Assembly: GCA_029785825.1 (NCBI GenBank)
Contig: JAFLYY010000001.1
Span: 1,271,374 to 1,335,373, forward strand
DNA length: 64,000 nucleotides
Direction of reading: 5' to 3'
From: Nitrososphaerota archaeon
Lineage (GTDB): Archaea; Thermoproteota; Nitrososphaeria; Nitrososphaerales; Gagatemarchaeaceae
A model generated the notes under the pieces. The model did not search any database, was not told the origin of the DNA, and saw only the letters and a program-made list of their open reading frames with translations. Both the position numbers and the translations under genes were made by a program. Shown in pieces: positions 3,972 to 8,551 of this stretch; position 1 is the stretch's first letter, and each line of letters opens with the position of its first letter.

Positions 3972-4391
3972 TCACCCTCGCGCCTTGCCAAAAAAGGCCG
4001 CTTCCTCGTGTGCAAAGCTCTCTGACGAGTCCGACGCGTGGATTGCGTTGTCTGTCAACCCGAGCCCTAGGTCTCCCCTTATGGTCCCCGACGCCGCCTC
4101 CCAGCTCTTGGTCGCCCCGACCATCCTCCTGACCGTGGCCACGGCGTCTCTGCCAGATAGGACCACCCCCACCACGGGCCCCGAGGTTATGAACGCGACC
4201 AGTTCCCCGAAGAACGGCTTCTCTTTGTGGACGCTGTAGAACTCTTCGGCCTGCGGCTTGGACAGGGTCTGCATCCTGAGCATTTTGATGACGAACCCCT
4301 TTCTCTCGAACCGCCCTATGATCTCGCCGACCAGCCCCCGTCTCACTCCGTCGGGCTTTACCACTATGAGTGTCTCTTCGGTCGCGCTCAT
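3972..4391 (-). CDS. ndk: Nucleoside diphosphate kinase
   Basis: Transfers the gamma-phosphate from ATP to nucleoside diphosphates through a phosphohistidine. Seen: an N-terminal ETLIVVKPDGVRRGLVGEI strand-helix and the C-terminal HASDSSESFAHEEAAFF region. The usual catalytic N-I-V/I-H-G-S-D stretch is represented by NAIHASDS, so the histidine is present. The chosen ATG overlaps the L24e stop as ATGA and gives 139 residues, the usual size; a longer in-frame start at 4415 would lie inside L24e. The L24e-ndk-infB order is conserved in archaea. Confidence 0.95.
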   Translation of the reverse strand: MSATEETLIVVKPDGVRRGLVGEIIGRFERKGFVIKMLRMQTLSKPQAEEFYSVHKEKPFFGELVAFITSGPVVGVVLSGRDAVATVRRMVGATKSWEAASGTIRGDLGLGLTDNAIHASDSSESFAHEEAAFFGKARG

Positions 4392-4570
4392 TTCTTCTGG
4401 GGCCTCCTCGCCCATTTCAGCTTGCGAGGGTCCCGTCCGAGCTTCAGGTCGTTGACCTTACATTTCGATGAGCAGTAGGATCTGGTAGAGCCGTCGTTCT
4501 TCACGAACAGGATGCCGGAGCCGAGCCTGACTTCTCTGCCGCAGAAGACACATTTCTTTGGAACGTACAT
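4388..4570 (-). CDS. rpl24e: 50S ribosomal protein L24e
   Basis: A 60-residue zinc-ribbon large-subunit protein. CVFCGREV at residues 8-15 and YCSSKC further on give the four zinc cysteines. The basic C-terminus (KLKWARRPQKK) is typical. In most archaea this gene directly follows L7Ae and S28e; here those two lie 3.8 kb away beyond the tubulin-like cluster. A TATA sequence at 4616-4624 gives the gene its own promoter. Confidence 0.95.
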   Translation of the reverse strand: MYVPKKCVFCGREVRLGSGILFVKNDGSTRSYCSSKCKVNDLKLGRDPRKLKWARRPQKK

Positions 4571-4666: not shown

Positions 4667-5602
4667 CTAGGACGGAACCGTTCCACCCAGGAACCTCATC
4701 CAATACTGTGCTTCGACGATCAGCCTCTGGGCGAAGTCCTTCGGGTGGGCTACCACTCCGTCCAGTGCCTTGGCTATGGTGTCCGGTCCCAGGTTCGCCA
4801 GGCCCTCCAGGTCAATGCTGGCCGCGCCTGTCAGATGCCTCAGCTTCTGGGCGAGCTCCAAGTCGTGGAGGTGTACCCCTTCGAGGTCCCCGCCGTCGGC
4901 GAACGCGCTCGCAAGAAAAGACACGTCCCCCGAGAGAACGATGTCCTTGACAGAGAGTCCCCGCGACTTCATGGTGGCGTAGAGATGGCTGTAGGAGACC
5001 ACCTCCTCCAGAGAGAGCACGGCGAAAAGGGTCCTAGCGGCAGGCATTTTCCTGATCCCTCTGCGCTCGGAGACCGTCCTCTTCAGGTCGACCAATGCGA
5101 CGAACGGGAACACGTAGTCTACCTGCTTTCCCACCTGCTTTGACATCTCCTGTCTGAACCAGAGCTTCAACGACTCCTGGCTTTCCAGCCCCGCGGGAGT
5201 CCTGGTGGGCGGCAAGACCCAGACCCCGGACTGGACGAGCTTGAAACCCGTGGCGATGAGCCTGTCTCTGAGGCTCACGGAGCCTTTCTTACTTTTCGAC
5301 CTCTCGTAGGACTTCAGCAGCAGGAGGGCCTTGACTTCGCCTGGATAGGACTTTATCAGCTCCTCGACAGTTATCCCTGAGTTCTTGAGCTGCCAGCCTA
5401 GCCGGCGCACGAGGCGCTTGCACATCAGCTCGTGGTCCTCATACGTGGCGGGCGCCGCGTGGTCCTCGCCGTCGACCTCTATCCGCTGGATGACCGCCTG
5501 AGCCAGCTCGTCGTCCTTGGGGAGGGTTGTGCCGCTGGTAATCTTGCTGAGAGGGCCCCGCACCTTGTCAAAGAGACCGGTGATTCGCTTTACAGCTGAC
5601 AC
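4667..5602 (-). CDS. Uncharacterised protein of the tubulin-like cluster, 311 aa
   Basis: I do not recognise this protein. It has 311 residues, is soluble by inspection (no convincing membrane segment, no signal peptide) and is rich in predicted helix. A basic patch KSYERSKSKKGSVSLRDR lies around residues 98-115 and there is a long C-terminal helical region. It starts at GTG, 30 bases after the coiled-coil gene on the same strand, and is the last gene of a three-gene operon led by the tubulin-like GTPase, so a role as partner or regulator of that polymer is inferred. The adjacent L24e gene has its own promoter. Confidence 0.6.
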   Translation of the reverse strand: MSAVKRITGLFDKVRGPLSKITSGTTLPKDDELAQAVIQRIEVDGEDHAAPATYEDHELMCKRLVRRLGWQLKNSGITVEELIKSYPGEVKALLLLKSYERSKSKKGSVSLRDRLIATGFKLVQSGVWVLPPTRTPAGLESQESLKLWFRQEMSKQVGKQVDYVFPFVALVDLKRTVSERRGIRKMPAARTLFAVLSLEEVVSYSHLYATMKSRGLSVKDIVLSGDVSFLASAFADGGDLEGVHLHDLELAQKLRHLTGAASIDLEGLANLGPDTIAKALDGVVAHPKDFAQRLIVEAQYWMRFLGGTVPS

Positions 5603-5632
5603 GCTACCGGCTCCACCTGGGTTGATTGAATT

Positions 5633-6190
5633 CTAAAGCTTGCCTTCGGGCTGCGACGAGAGCCTCCGTCTGACGGCCTTCCGTATGTCATCAAAGGCCT
5701 CCACCAGCTTCTTCTTTGCAAAATATTCGTCCGAGTCTGCCACCTCCACTCGGTCGCCGTAGATTGTGACGTCCCCGATCCTCAAAGGAGAAGGGATCCC
5801 CAGGATGGCAGAGAGGCCCTCGACCGTCTTTGGGAAGGTCGCTCCGGACCTGAACCCAAAAGTGTTGGCACCCTCTGACTTGGAGGGGGTCGGGTCGAGG
5901 GGAATCACGAGCCCGCTTGAGCTGAACGCTTCCAAGACTCTGCGCTGGACCTCGCCGATGGCCCGACGCGCGCTTTCCTTCTCCTTCCTCAGGGCGGAGG
6001 CCCGATCCTGGTGCCCTGGGTCGGACCAGTCCATGCCTATCAGCGCATAGAACGCCTTGTCCTTCTCGTTCCGCTTCGGGTCCTGCTTAATCTCCTGGGA
6101 GAGCGCTTCGAGCTCGGCATCTATCGCCCTTAACCTCCTCTGCTCGTCCAGGAGCCGTCCGGCTTCGACTTCCAGCTCGGTGAGGTCCAA
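5633..6190 (-). CDS. Uncharacterised coiled-coil protein of the tubulin-like cluster, 185 aa
   Basis: A 185-residue protein not assigned to a family. Residues 1-40 form an acidic amphipathic helix (LTELEVEAGRLLDEQRRLRA), and a second charged helix spans about 60-90 (ALRKEKESARRAIGEVQRRV), consistent with a coiled coil. A small beta-rich part follows (LRIGDVTIYGDRVEVAD) and then a basic tail. The start is TTG, preceded by GGGGAG, six bases after the GTPase stop, so the two are tightly coupled. By analogy it may be an adaptor binding the filament, but this is inference from position only. Confidence 0.6.
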   Translation of the reverse strand: MDLTELEVEAGRLLDEQRRLRAIDAELEALSQEIKQDPKRNEKDKAFYALIGMDWSDPGHQDRASALRKEKESARRAIGEVQRRVLEAFSSSGLVIPLDPTPSKSEGANTFGFRSGATFPKTVEGLSAILGIPSPLRIGDVTIYGDRVEVADSDEYFAKKKLVEAFDDIRKAVRRRLSSQPEGKL

Positions 6191-6196
6191 ACTCCC

Positions 6197-7561
6197 CTAA
6201 CCCAGATGGCTGGAGACTTCAATCACAGCCTTCTTGAACTCCTCATGGGTCAGGTTCCGGGTCTGGTACTCGTCCTTGTACGAGTCCCAGGCGTCCTCGG
6301 CTTCAGCGATGAGGGGGAGGAGCTTCTTACTGATTCCCTTGATGTTGAGAAGGATGAGGGCAGAGGCGGGCTCCCCTGGAAGGGTAGGGATCTTGATGAA
6401 GATCACGCGCTTGTCCTGGATGGCGTACTTGTCGGCGAGCACCTTTTTGAAGAACTCTCTGTCCTCGGCTGTCAGCCGCGAGCTGCTTTTGATCAGAACG
6501 CAGGCAGAGTCGGTCTTCCCCTTCTCGATCTCTCCCTCCTGGGAGATGTCGAAGAGCAACCCGTCGTTCCCTTCGTCCAGGGCCTGTTCGATGGCCCGGA
6601 TGTCAGACCCTCCCTTGGGGACGAGCGGGATGAGCCACGGGACCACGAACTTCGGCTTGCTGGCCGCGAGCCAGGTCCTGTAGTTGGACATGTCCCACTC
6701 GGTCTCCCGGATGAACGAGTCCATGAACTCGGCTATTACGTGGGCAGCCAGCAGATTCATGTCTCGGTAGTCGTGCCACCCGACTCGGATCTGCTTCGGC
6801 AGCTCGTCGACTATGGACGAACGTGAGTCGAGCATCCCCTTGAGCTTGTCAGCCTGGAAACGGAGCTCCTTGTTGTCCATAAGGATGGGAGCGTCCGAAT
6901 ACCGGATCTGGTAGGCCATGTTCAGCACCACGCTGATGTGCGCCGGCCCGTAGATGATCGGGTCCCACCCTATCTCTGGGAGGACCCCGAAGGTGGCGAT
7001 GGTGGCATGACCCAGGGTCGGGCTTTCCTTGACATATGCCATGAACTCCGAAGAGAAGGAACCCCCGGTGCCGCCCCCCATGCTGAAGGGGACTATGAAG
7101 CCCCTCACGGGTTCGGGTGAGATTGCCTGAATCCTGGACGCGATGTCCTGCTTGCCGACTATCTCGTTCCTGAACCTTCCACGCCCTTCAGCCCAGTTCC
7201 TCGCGGCGCCTCCGAGCCCGTAGACCGCGTGCTTGTCCTTCATGGCGAAAAGCTGCGGGTACGACTGAAGTATCAGGTTAGCAGAACGCGGGTCCAAGTC
7301 TACCAGCAGCGCCCGCGGAACAAGCGGAGTCTCCCCTCTGCGAAGCGAAGCGCCGAACCTCAGTATCGTGCTCCCATACCTCCTCAGGACTTCGAGCTGC
7401 TGCTTCTCGCCTTTGAGGGTCGGAGCGCTCGGATTGGCCCCGACGTCCATGAGGACCCACCTGTACGCCTCGGCGCCTATCCCCACGCCCGCATGTCCCA
7501 TGCACGCCATTATCACCGGATTGGGGGCGAGAGGAGCCTGGTTAGCTAGGCTGAACGCCAA
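6197..7561 (-). CDS. Tubulin-superfamily GTPase (tubulin-like, divergent)
   Basis: At 454 residues it has the length of a eukaryotic tubulin. In order it shows GHAGVGIG (22-29; tubulin has GQAGVQxG), LVDLDP (86-91; tubulin LVDLEP), RNWAEGR (121-127; tubulin NNWAKGH), MGGGTGGS (161-168; the GTP-binding glycine loop GGGTGSG) and MDNKEL (228-233; tubulin DNEAL, guanine contact). FtsZ lacks the NWAxG motif and has GVGGAGGN at the first loop, so this resembles tubulin more than FtsZ. The T7 catalytic loop is less clear; DYRDMNLL near 265-272 is the candidate. The start is TTG and the transcript is probably leaderless from a TATA box shared with the divergent vWA gene. Nearest known comparisons are artubulins, OdinTubulin and the FtsZl-1 family; I cannot decide among them. 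Confidence 0.85.
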   Translation of the reverse strand: MAFSLANQAPLAPNPVIMACMGHAGVGIGAEAYRWVLMDVGANPSAPTLKGEKQQLEVLRRYGSTILRFGASLRRGETPLVPRALLVDLDPRSANLILQSYPQLFAMKDKHAVYGLGGAARNWAEGRGRFRNEIVGKQDIASRIQAISPEPVRGFIVPFSMGGGTGGSFSSEFMAYVKESPTLGHATIATFGVLPEIGWDPIIYGPAHISVVLNMAYQIRYSDAPILMDNKELRFQADKLKGMLDSRSSIVDELPKQIRVGWHDYRDMNLLAAHVIAEFMDSFIRETEWDMSNYRTWLAASKPKFVVPWLIPLVPKGGSDIRAIEQALDEGNDGLLFDISQEGEIEKGKTDSACVLIKSSSRLTAEDREFFKKVLADKYAIQDKRVIFIKIPTLPGEPASALILLNIKGISKKLLPLIAEAEDAWDSYKDEYQTRNLTHEEFKKAVIEVSSHLG

Positions 7562-7582
7562 CGTTATACCTCGCCTTCCATC

Positions 7583-7592
7583 TTTTTTATAC
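7583..7592. promoter_or_regulatory. Shared bidirectional TATA element, tubulin-like / vWA genes
   Basis: TTTTTTATAC on the plus strand reads GTATAAAAAA on the minus strand. Its centre lies about 26 bases from the TTG at 7561 and about 33 bases from the ATG at 7621, the normal archaeal TATA distance in both directions. Only 59 bases separate the genes and no other AT-rich element is present, so one box probably serves both. Confidence 0.55.
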
Positions 7593-7620
7593 GTTTGTTG
7601 GGGCGGATGAAACGTCGGCG

Positions 7621-8196
7621 ATGAGCTACGATGAGTCCAAAGCGAGGGACGTCATCTTCGTCATAGACGGCTCCAGGAGCATGGGAGGAAAGCTGACGTC
7701 GTCCGGGATGAGCAAGATGGAGATCGTAAAGACGGGGCTGACGAACTACATCGCCGAGCGTTGGCCCGTGTCCTATTTCCCCTGGCCGATACGGATGGGG
7801 ATCTCGTTCTACCGCCTCCTCGGGACGCCGGGCTCCACGCAGATCGAGGTCGTGGTGCCGCTTAACCCGCCTCCTGCCTCACTCGAGCTCTACAGACTGG
7901 AGGAAGCTGGCTGCAGGGGCGGGAGCCCGCTGGCCGACGCCCTCAGGTATGGGATCAAGAGCACGTCTGACTCGATGAGGAAGGAGAAGGTGGTCAAGCT
8001 GGTAAGCGACGGAGGGAACGACGGACCTCCTGCGAAGACCGTGGCTGACGAGCTGAGCGGCTCGTCGGTAGTTGTGGACGTCATCGAGCTTTCGAACAGC
8101 GCGTCGGGGGAGCTGAGGGACATCGCGGCCATGGGGCATGGCGCCTACCTCCGGCCGCAGAACCTAGCGGGGTTCGAAGCCGCGATACGAAGGTAG
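7621..8196 (+). CDS. von Willebrand factor A domain protein
   Basis: A 191-residue protein that is almost entirely one vWA domain. The metal-ion-dependent adhesion site is intact: DGSRS at 16-20 (DxSxS), a serine/threonine position in GGSPLADAL (101-109) and SDGGND at 130-135. There is no signal peptide or membrane segment, so it should act in the cytosol. It is transcribed divergently from the tubulin-like operon from a shared TATA element. A vWA partner is also reported for the FtsZl-1 tubulin-superfamily systems, where a membrane-remodelling role was predicted; the same role here is inference. Confidence 0.85.
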   Translation: MSYDESKARDVIFVIDGSRSMGGKLTSSGMSKMEIVKTGLTNYIAERWPVSYFPWPIRMGISFYRLLGTPGSTQIEVVVPLNPPPASLELYRLEEAGCRGGSPLADALRYGIKSTSDSMRKEKVVKLVSDGGNDGPPAKTVADELSGSSVVVDVIELSNSASGELRDIAAMGHGAYLRPQNLAGFEAAIRR

Positions 8197-8332: not shown

Positions 8333-8551
8333 CTATTTCAGCTTCCGGGCCTCGCGTTCCGTCTCTCTCAGGACCAGCACGTCCGCCAGCCTGATGGGTC
8401 CCTTCACGTTCCTGGTCAGAATCCGCCCCTTCTCCTTCCCCTCGAGAATCTTGACCCTCACCTGTGTGATTTCGCCGGCCACCCCAGTTCTTCCCACGAT
8501 CTGGACCACCTCGGCAGGAGTTAGTGTTTCCGCTTCTCTCTTGCTGCTCAT
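8333..8551 (-). CDS. rps28e: 30S ribosomal protein S28e
   Basis: A 72-residue OB-fold protein of the small-subunit head. The sequence [20 protein letters not shown] and the C-terminal [10 protein letters not shown] match the family. Its ATG overlaps the L7Ae stop as ATGA, as in many archaea. Normally L24e and ndk would follow; here the operon ends and the tubulin-like cluster begins on the other side of a 136-base gap. Confidence 0.95.

Follow-up and report, generated by a model that had tools for sequence, protein, structure and literature searches.

A 64,000-nucleotide stretch of a Nitrososphaerota archaeon genome (the window; C1:1271374-1335373 of a 1.97-Mb assembly) encodes a tubulin of the artubulin family, directly followed by the gene for a protein of 185 amino acids (aa), p185. 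This protein is the universal partner of artubulin and, as far as our literature search reached, new. In the window's family, two further proteins are co-inherited with the pair: p311, of 311 aa, and a vWA protein. Among congeners, the four genes are present or absent as a unit, at a fixed site. The literature search covered the main text of open-access papers. Within this scope we found no description of p185, of the p311 and vWA partners or of the unit-like presence and absence, and no report of an artubulin function or filament.

The artubulin gene (6197..7561, minus strand, TTG start) encodes a GTPase of 454 aa, which by profile and fold is a tubulin and not an FtsZ. A preliminary description of this DNA had come to the same view from five motifs. 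All five (GHAGVGIG, LVDLDP, RNWAEGR, MGGGTGGS and MDNKEL) were found, in the same order. The protein matched Pfam Tubulin above the family cut-off (4.8e-10), and the Pfam search gave no FtsZ_C match. A profile built from 17 diverse family members hit solved tubulins in the PDB at 8.9e-22 to about 1e-11. The best match was Heim-alpha-tubulin (8.9e-22), with AtubA, gamma- and alpha-tubulin also found, and the best-scoring 60 PDB sequences listed were all tubulins. In the AlphaFold2 model of the full-length protein (pLDDT 82.9, pTM 0.87), the long core helix (256-283) is present and the second domain is complete. Its 50 best PDB folds were all tubulin entries, of eukaryotic, bacterial (BtubABC), Odin or Asgard origin (TM 0.65-0.80, over 458-487 alignment columns), with no non-tubulin Rossmann fold among them. 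A class-wide search with the artubulin profile gave no FtsZ hit at E<=0.001, though FtsZ is common in the relatives. Identities of 47-97% across the 80 retrieved artubulin loci indicate that the open reading frame (ORF) is not a chance observation. The window genome also encodes a separate, divergent FtsZ-like protein of 347 aa, without an FtsZ_C match (L178:7487-8530; G000:C1 at about 226.5 kb). A canonical FtsZ with FtsZ_C was seen in the artubulin-less congener G005 (L179:6910-8130).

The artubulin family was named in 2012, from Nitrosarchaeum (Yutin and Koonin, PMC3349469). Judged by its sequence, the window GTPase belongs to this published family, so the novelty does not lie in the tubulin. 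It was 50-53% identical to the Nitrosarchaeum loci over nearly the full length, and 50-55% identical to Nitrosopumilales members. In a tree of the artubulin loci, the window and Nitrosarchaeum members formed one continuous family, of which the window tubulin is a new, deep-branching member. The phylogenetic placement of artubulins has been reported as unresolved even with far larger sets (PMC13394414). The 80 loci include Nitrosotalea devanaterra, Nitrosotalea bavarica, Nitrosotenuis chungbukensis and Nitrosarchaeum; the deposited N. limnia and N. koreensis records were not among them by name. Nitrosotenuis and Nitrosarchaeum artubulins were 79.4% identical, and the published value for N. uzonensis and Nitrosarchaeum is about 79% (PMC3835317).

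In a phylum-wide sample (398 genomes), every artubulin match fell within the window's own order. In a class sample of 400 genomes, artubulin was found in 87. Two matches in family f7 (G042 and G056) were discounted as Tubulin_2-type proteins of 900 aa. The preliminary description had spoken of tubulin relatives in a few archaea; this was too narrow, artubulin being widespread in Nitrososphaeria. No artubulin match was found in 72,556 plasmids or 50,697 phages, none was confirmed in viral contigs, and PADLOC gave no match. In this, artubulin differs from the plasmid- and phage-encoded tubulins TubZ and PhuZ.

The p185 gene (5633..6190, minus strand, in the window) came next after artubulin in each of the 76 loci where this could be tested, with a gap of 2-18 bp. 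The remaining four of the 80 loci are on contigs that stop no more than about 160 bp from the tubulin match. All 87 genomes of the class sample with a true artubulin also had p185 (two profile searches compared by hand). The gene-tree distances of the two proteins correlate (r 0.98), p185 evolving faster (24-30% identity between deep clades, vs 51-54% for artubulin). In the artubulin-less genome G048, p185 is a decayed pseudogene, and p185 fragments were found in G141 and G161. The AlphaFold2 model of p185 (pLDDT 88.9) consists of a long helical, coiled-coil hairpin (residues 3-90), then a small alpha/beta domain (103-179), in line with the coiled-coil protein described earlier. No Pfam family was matched above cut-off. 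The model had no match among PDB folds at E<=0.001, and a p185 profile found no relevant relative among PDB sequences, coiled-coil noise at most. A weak ATG16 match (E 0.2) was discounted as a coiled-coil effect. Coiled-coil neighbours of archaeal tubulin-like genes have been mentioned in general terms (PMC9871819).

Full-length p185 relatives were located in family f2, in loci without artubulin, at L126:7973-8563, L127:8116-8766 and L128:8202-8759. In L127, which also gave a weak ZapB match (0.028), the relative is next to genes for a radical-SAM protein and an archaellin. Relatives of the p185 C-terminal domain, again without artubulin, were located in family f8 (L130:7617-8093, similar in L129-L137), adjoined in L130 by the Emg1 and S19e genes. 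Genome G038 carries two artubulin-p185 pairs, on contigs C69 and C7 (L021, L024). In the second pair, one stop was counted in artubulin and one in p185.

Beyond this pair, p311 (4667..5602, minus strand) was present in 21 of the 21 artubulin genomes of the window's family (f1), in 0/16 artubulin-less genomes of f1 and in 0/24 genomes of other families. A close orthologue of the vWA protein (191 aa; 7621..8196, plus strand, transcribed divergently) was found in 20 of the same 21 genomes and in 0/16 of the others. Fisher values for co-occurrence with artubulin were 8e-11 for p311 and 1e-9 for the vWA protein, both too favourable given the relatedness of the genomes. Independent support for co-inheritance comes from G035, which keeps p311 on a separate contig from artubulin, and from L041-L043, where the vWA gene holds its divergent position although the other neighbours differ from the window's. 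Overall, a divergent vWA neighbour of artubulin was seen in 19 loci and is lineage-restricted. The preliminary description had placed the four ORFs correctly, and the multi-gene system it described is conserved, but its components are not of equal standing. The artubulin-p185 pairing held in all 76 loci; p311 and the vWA gene occur only in the window's family.

The vWA protein matched Pfam VWA (1.2e-7), as did 11 of 11 orthologues. Its metal ion-dependent adhesion site (MIDAS) is intact, as described earlier: the DxSxS residues D16/S18/S20 and D130 were invariant in the 11 aligned orthologues. For p311, all 11 members gave a PaaX_M (Cas2-like) match below cut-off, the best at 2.3e-4, and its profile found nothing beyond coiled-coil noise among PDB sequences. 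The earlier view that two of the partners match no described family thus holds for p185 and p311 at the Pfam cut-off. The N-terminal helix of p311 is conserved, basic and amphipathic (hydrophobic moment 0.52-0.76, charge +3 to +4).

In the window's genus, all four module genes are placed between the genes of ribosomal proteins S28e and L24e. In the window, L24e (4388..4570, minus strand; Pfam Ribosomal_L24e 4.4e-15) lies just beyond p311, and S28e (8333..8551, minus strand; Pfam Ribosomal_S28e 1.6e-30) just beyond the vWA gene. The module is therefore inside an L7Ae-S28e-L24e-NDK-IF5B-S6e string, the ribosomal gene string already recognized in the preliminary description. In one artubulin-less congener (L190), 134 bp separate S28e from L24e and the module is missing; further congeners likewise lack the module but have the same flanking genes. 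G005 has an unrelated 356-aa ORF at the module site. At L189:6655-7725, in a congener without artubulin, an ORF of 356 aa that matches no Pfam family lies between S28e and L24e, a place where insertions may recur.

We consider it probable that these genes encode a GTP-dependent artubulin filament with a dedicated partner, p185, and lineage-specific effectors. Artubulin would bind and hydrolyze GTP and most likely form tubulin/FtsZ-like protofilaments through a head-to-tail T7/H8 contact. p185, presumably made from the same mRNA, would be a dedicated stabilizer or adaptor that binds artubulin, as a subunit or as a filament. In the window's family, the basic amphipathic N-terminus of p311 probably tethers the filament to the membrane, and the vWA protein, itself cytosolic, may be a regulator or an interaction subunit that depends on divalent cations. 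In Nitrosarchaeum, the ESCRT-III protein encoded beside artubulin would stand in place of p311 and the vWA protein. The absence of the module from many close relatives points to an accessory, not an essential system, and its cell function is most likely a non-essential membrane or shape remodelling. In a bolder version, artubulin would be one half of an obligate two-protein cytoskeleton, its filament built or capped with p185 and served by interchangeable, lineage-specific membrane effectors (ESCRT-III; p311 and vWA). We hold this version tentatively, and think it somewhat likelier to be wrong than right. We know of no other tubulin with a filament built or capped by a coiled-coil/alpha-beta partner of unknown fold.

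The conservation pattern of artubulin bears on the filament. Conservation is strong in its nucleotide loops, and across the family it peaks in the 15 residues RETEWDMSNYRTWLA (285-299), which map in the AlphaFold2 model to the predicted T7/H8 region. In tubulins, the T7/H8 face touches the nucleotide of the next subunit, head to tail, and the M-loop makes lateral contacts in microtubules. The M-loop-like segment of artubulin is variable compared with RETEWDMSNYRTWLA (1.41 vs 0.12 bits). Together, this favours head-to-tail protofilaments over a microtubule-like lateral packing. MNLLAAH (268-274) was considered as a degenerate T7 loop and rejected, because in the model this segment belongs to H7, and T7 falls at about 284-290.

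Several observations weigh against the proposed filament system. The T7 assignment depends on the model, in which confidence drops under 50 at residues 286-288, and a plain sequence alignment to beta-tubulin was not significant in the T7/H8 region. The amphipathic helix of p311 barely beats shuffles in single sequences. The co-occurrence of p311 and vWA with artubulin within the genus represents few independent events, with 2 changes on the IF5B tree for the testable part of the genus. Relatives of p185 without artubulin occur in six f2 genomes (full length) and in 31 f8 genomes (mostly the C-terminal domain), so p185 may have an older role, and may predate or outlive its pairing with artubulin.

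Artubulin and p185 could instead be dedicated to cell division, aiding ESCRT-III (Cdv) in cytokinesis, as predicted for Nitrosarchaeum, where a Snf7/ESCRT-III gene adjoins artubulin (Yutin and Koonin, PMC3349469). In seven loci (L089 and L091-L096; labelled as Nitrosarchaeum, Nitrosopumilus and Nitrosopumilaceae), the gene immediately upstream of artubulin was CdvB-like, of the Snf7 family (Pfam Snf7 3.3e-7 in L096), the Nitrosarchaeum-type loci thus being arranged as published. However, the adjacency is confined to these seven loci, and the universal neighbour is p185, not Snf7. The Snf7 neighbour has also been published as variable, noted for Nitrosarchaeum and absent in N. uzonensis (PMC3835317), and is therefore not defining for artubulin. 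At the window locus no Snf7 gene is next to artubulin, which has p311 and vWA alongside instead. Further, the module is missing in most relatives (e.g., the complete congener G005 has neither artubulin nor p185), indicating that it is not an essential division system. A dedicated role in division is thus unlikely, although it is the alternative we take most seriously.

Less plausibly still, artubulin might be a non-polymerizing GTP switch or scaffold acting with p185, its tubulin fold serving regulation. To our knowledge there is no experimental artubulin filament, and the variable M-loop-like segment would suit such a role. The FtsZ of Nitrosopumilus maritimus was reported not to assemble into polymers (PMC3684127). 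However, no part of artubulin is better conserved than the presumed longitudinal face, as polymerization would demand, and the GTP loops are intact, so we regard a pure switch as improbable.

We give equally little credence to p311 and the vWA protein being mere neighbours, outside the system, for which their restriction to f1 and the few independent presence/absence changes within the genus would speak. Against this, the vWA gene kept its divergent position in L041-L043 despite the differing neighbours, and p311 was retained on its own contig in G035 and was absent from all artubulin-less genomes sampled.

That the GTPase is a divergent FtsZ or FtsZl1 (Tubulin_2) protein, as its vWA association, also known from published FtsZl1 operons (PMC2875224), might suggest, is refuted by Pfam (no Tubulin_2, PF13809, match at E<=1), by the full tubulin fold and by the class-wide profile without FtsZ matches, and its probability is negligible.

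Pairs of FtsZl1 and vWA proteins were predicted to be membrane-remodelling systems (Makarova and Koonin 2010, PMC2875224). The preliminary description had drawn a parallel to them, and one part of it stands: a tubulin-superfamily GTPase is encoded next to an intact-MIDAS vWA protein and lineage-specific unknown proteins. Kinship was not borne out. In FtsZl1, which we take to correspond to PF13809, the T6-H7 elements and the standard second domain are not recognizable, whereas the artubulin model has a complete H7 and second domain. With no Tubulin_2 domain and a full tubulin fold, the comparison is an analogy only.

The same fold is shared with BtubA/B (with BtubC), OdinTubulin and the Asgard AtubA/B, the top PDB matches including BtubB, OdinTubulin and AtubB. 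Artubulin is far more diverged than this set (about 20% identity in structural alignment), and is a single tubulin gene, not a heterodimer pair. The p185 model matched no solved structure at the threshold given above. The OdinTubulin gene likewise lies between coiled-coil genes (PMC9871819).

Since 2012, a possible relationship of artubulins to the eukaryotic tubulin ancestor has been under discussion. The presence of p185 in every artubulin genome examined suggests that the two should be studied jointly, and the pairing offers a concrete handle on the role of artubulin. Whether and how artubulin polymerizes can thus be put to a direct test, also in Nitrosotalea and Nitrosotenuis, whose loci come from named organisms. 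The results suggest a modular tubulin system, its core constant and its effectors exchangeable, in archaea that divide by ESCRT-like proteins.

In the 59-bp gap between the divergent artubulin and vWA genes there is a TATA-box-like element, TATAAAAAA (7583..7591, minus strand), ~30 bp upstream of the artubulin start, a putative promoter. A TATA-like block at about -30 was conserved in most of the 19 clade loci, with a divergent gap of 55-60 bp.

A separate system was seen in G042, at L171:5205-13999. It encodes a 902-aa Tubulin_2 protein (PF13809, 1.4e-11) and a second tubulin of 428 aa, together with proteins of 313 and 786 aa without Pfam matches. Clusters with similar ORF sizes were found in several Nitrososphaeria families (L172, L173, L174, L175 and L176).

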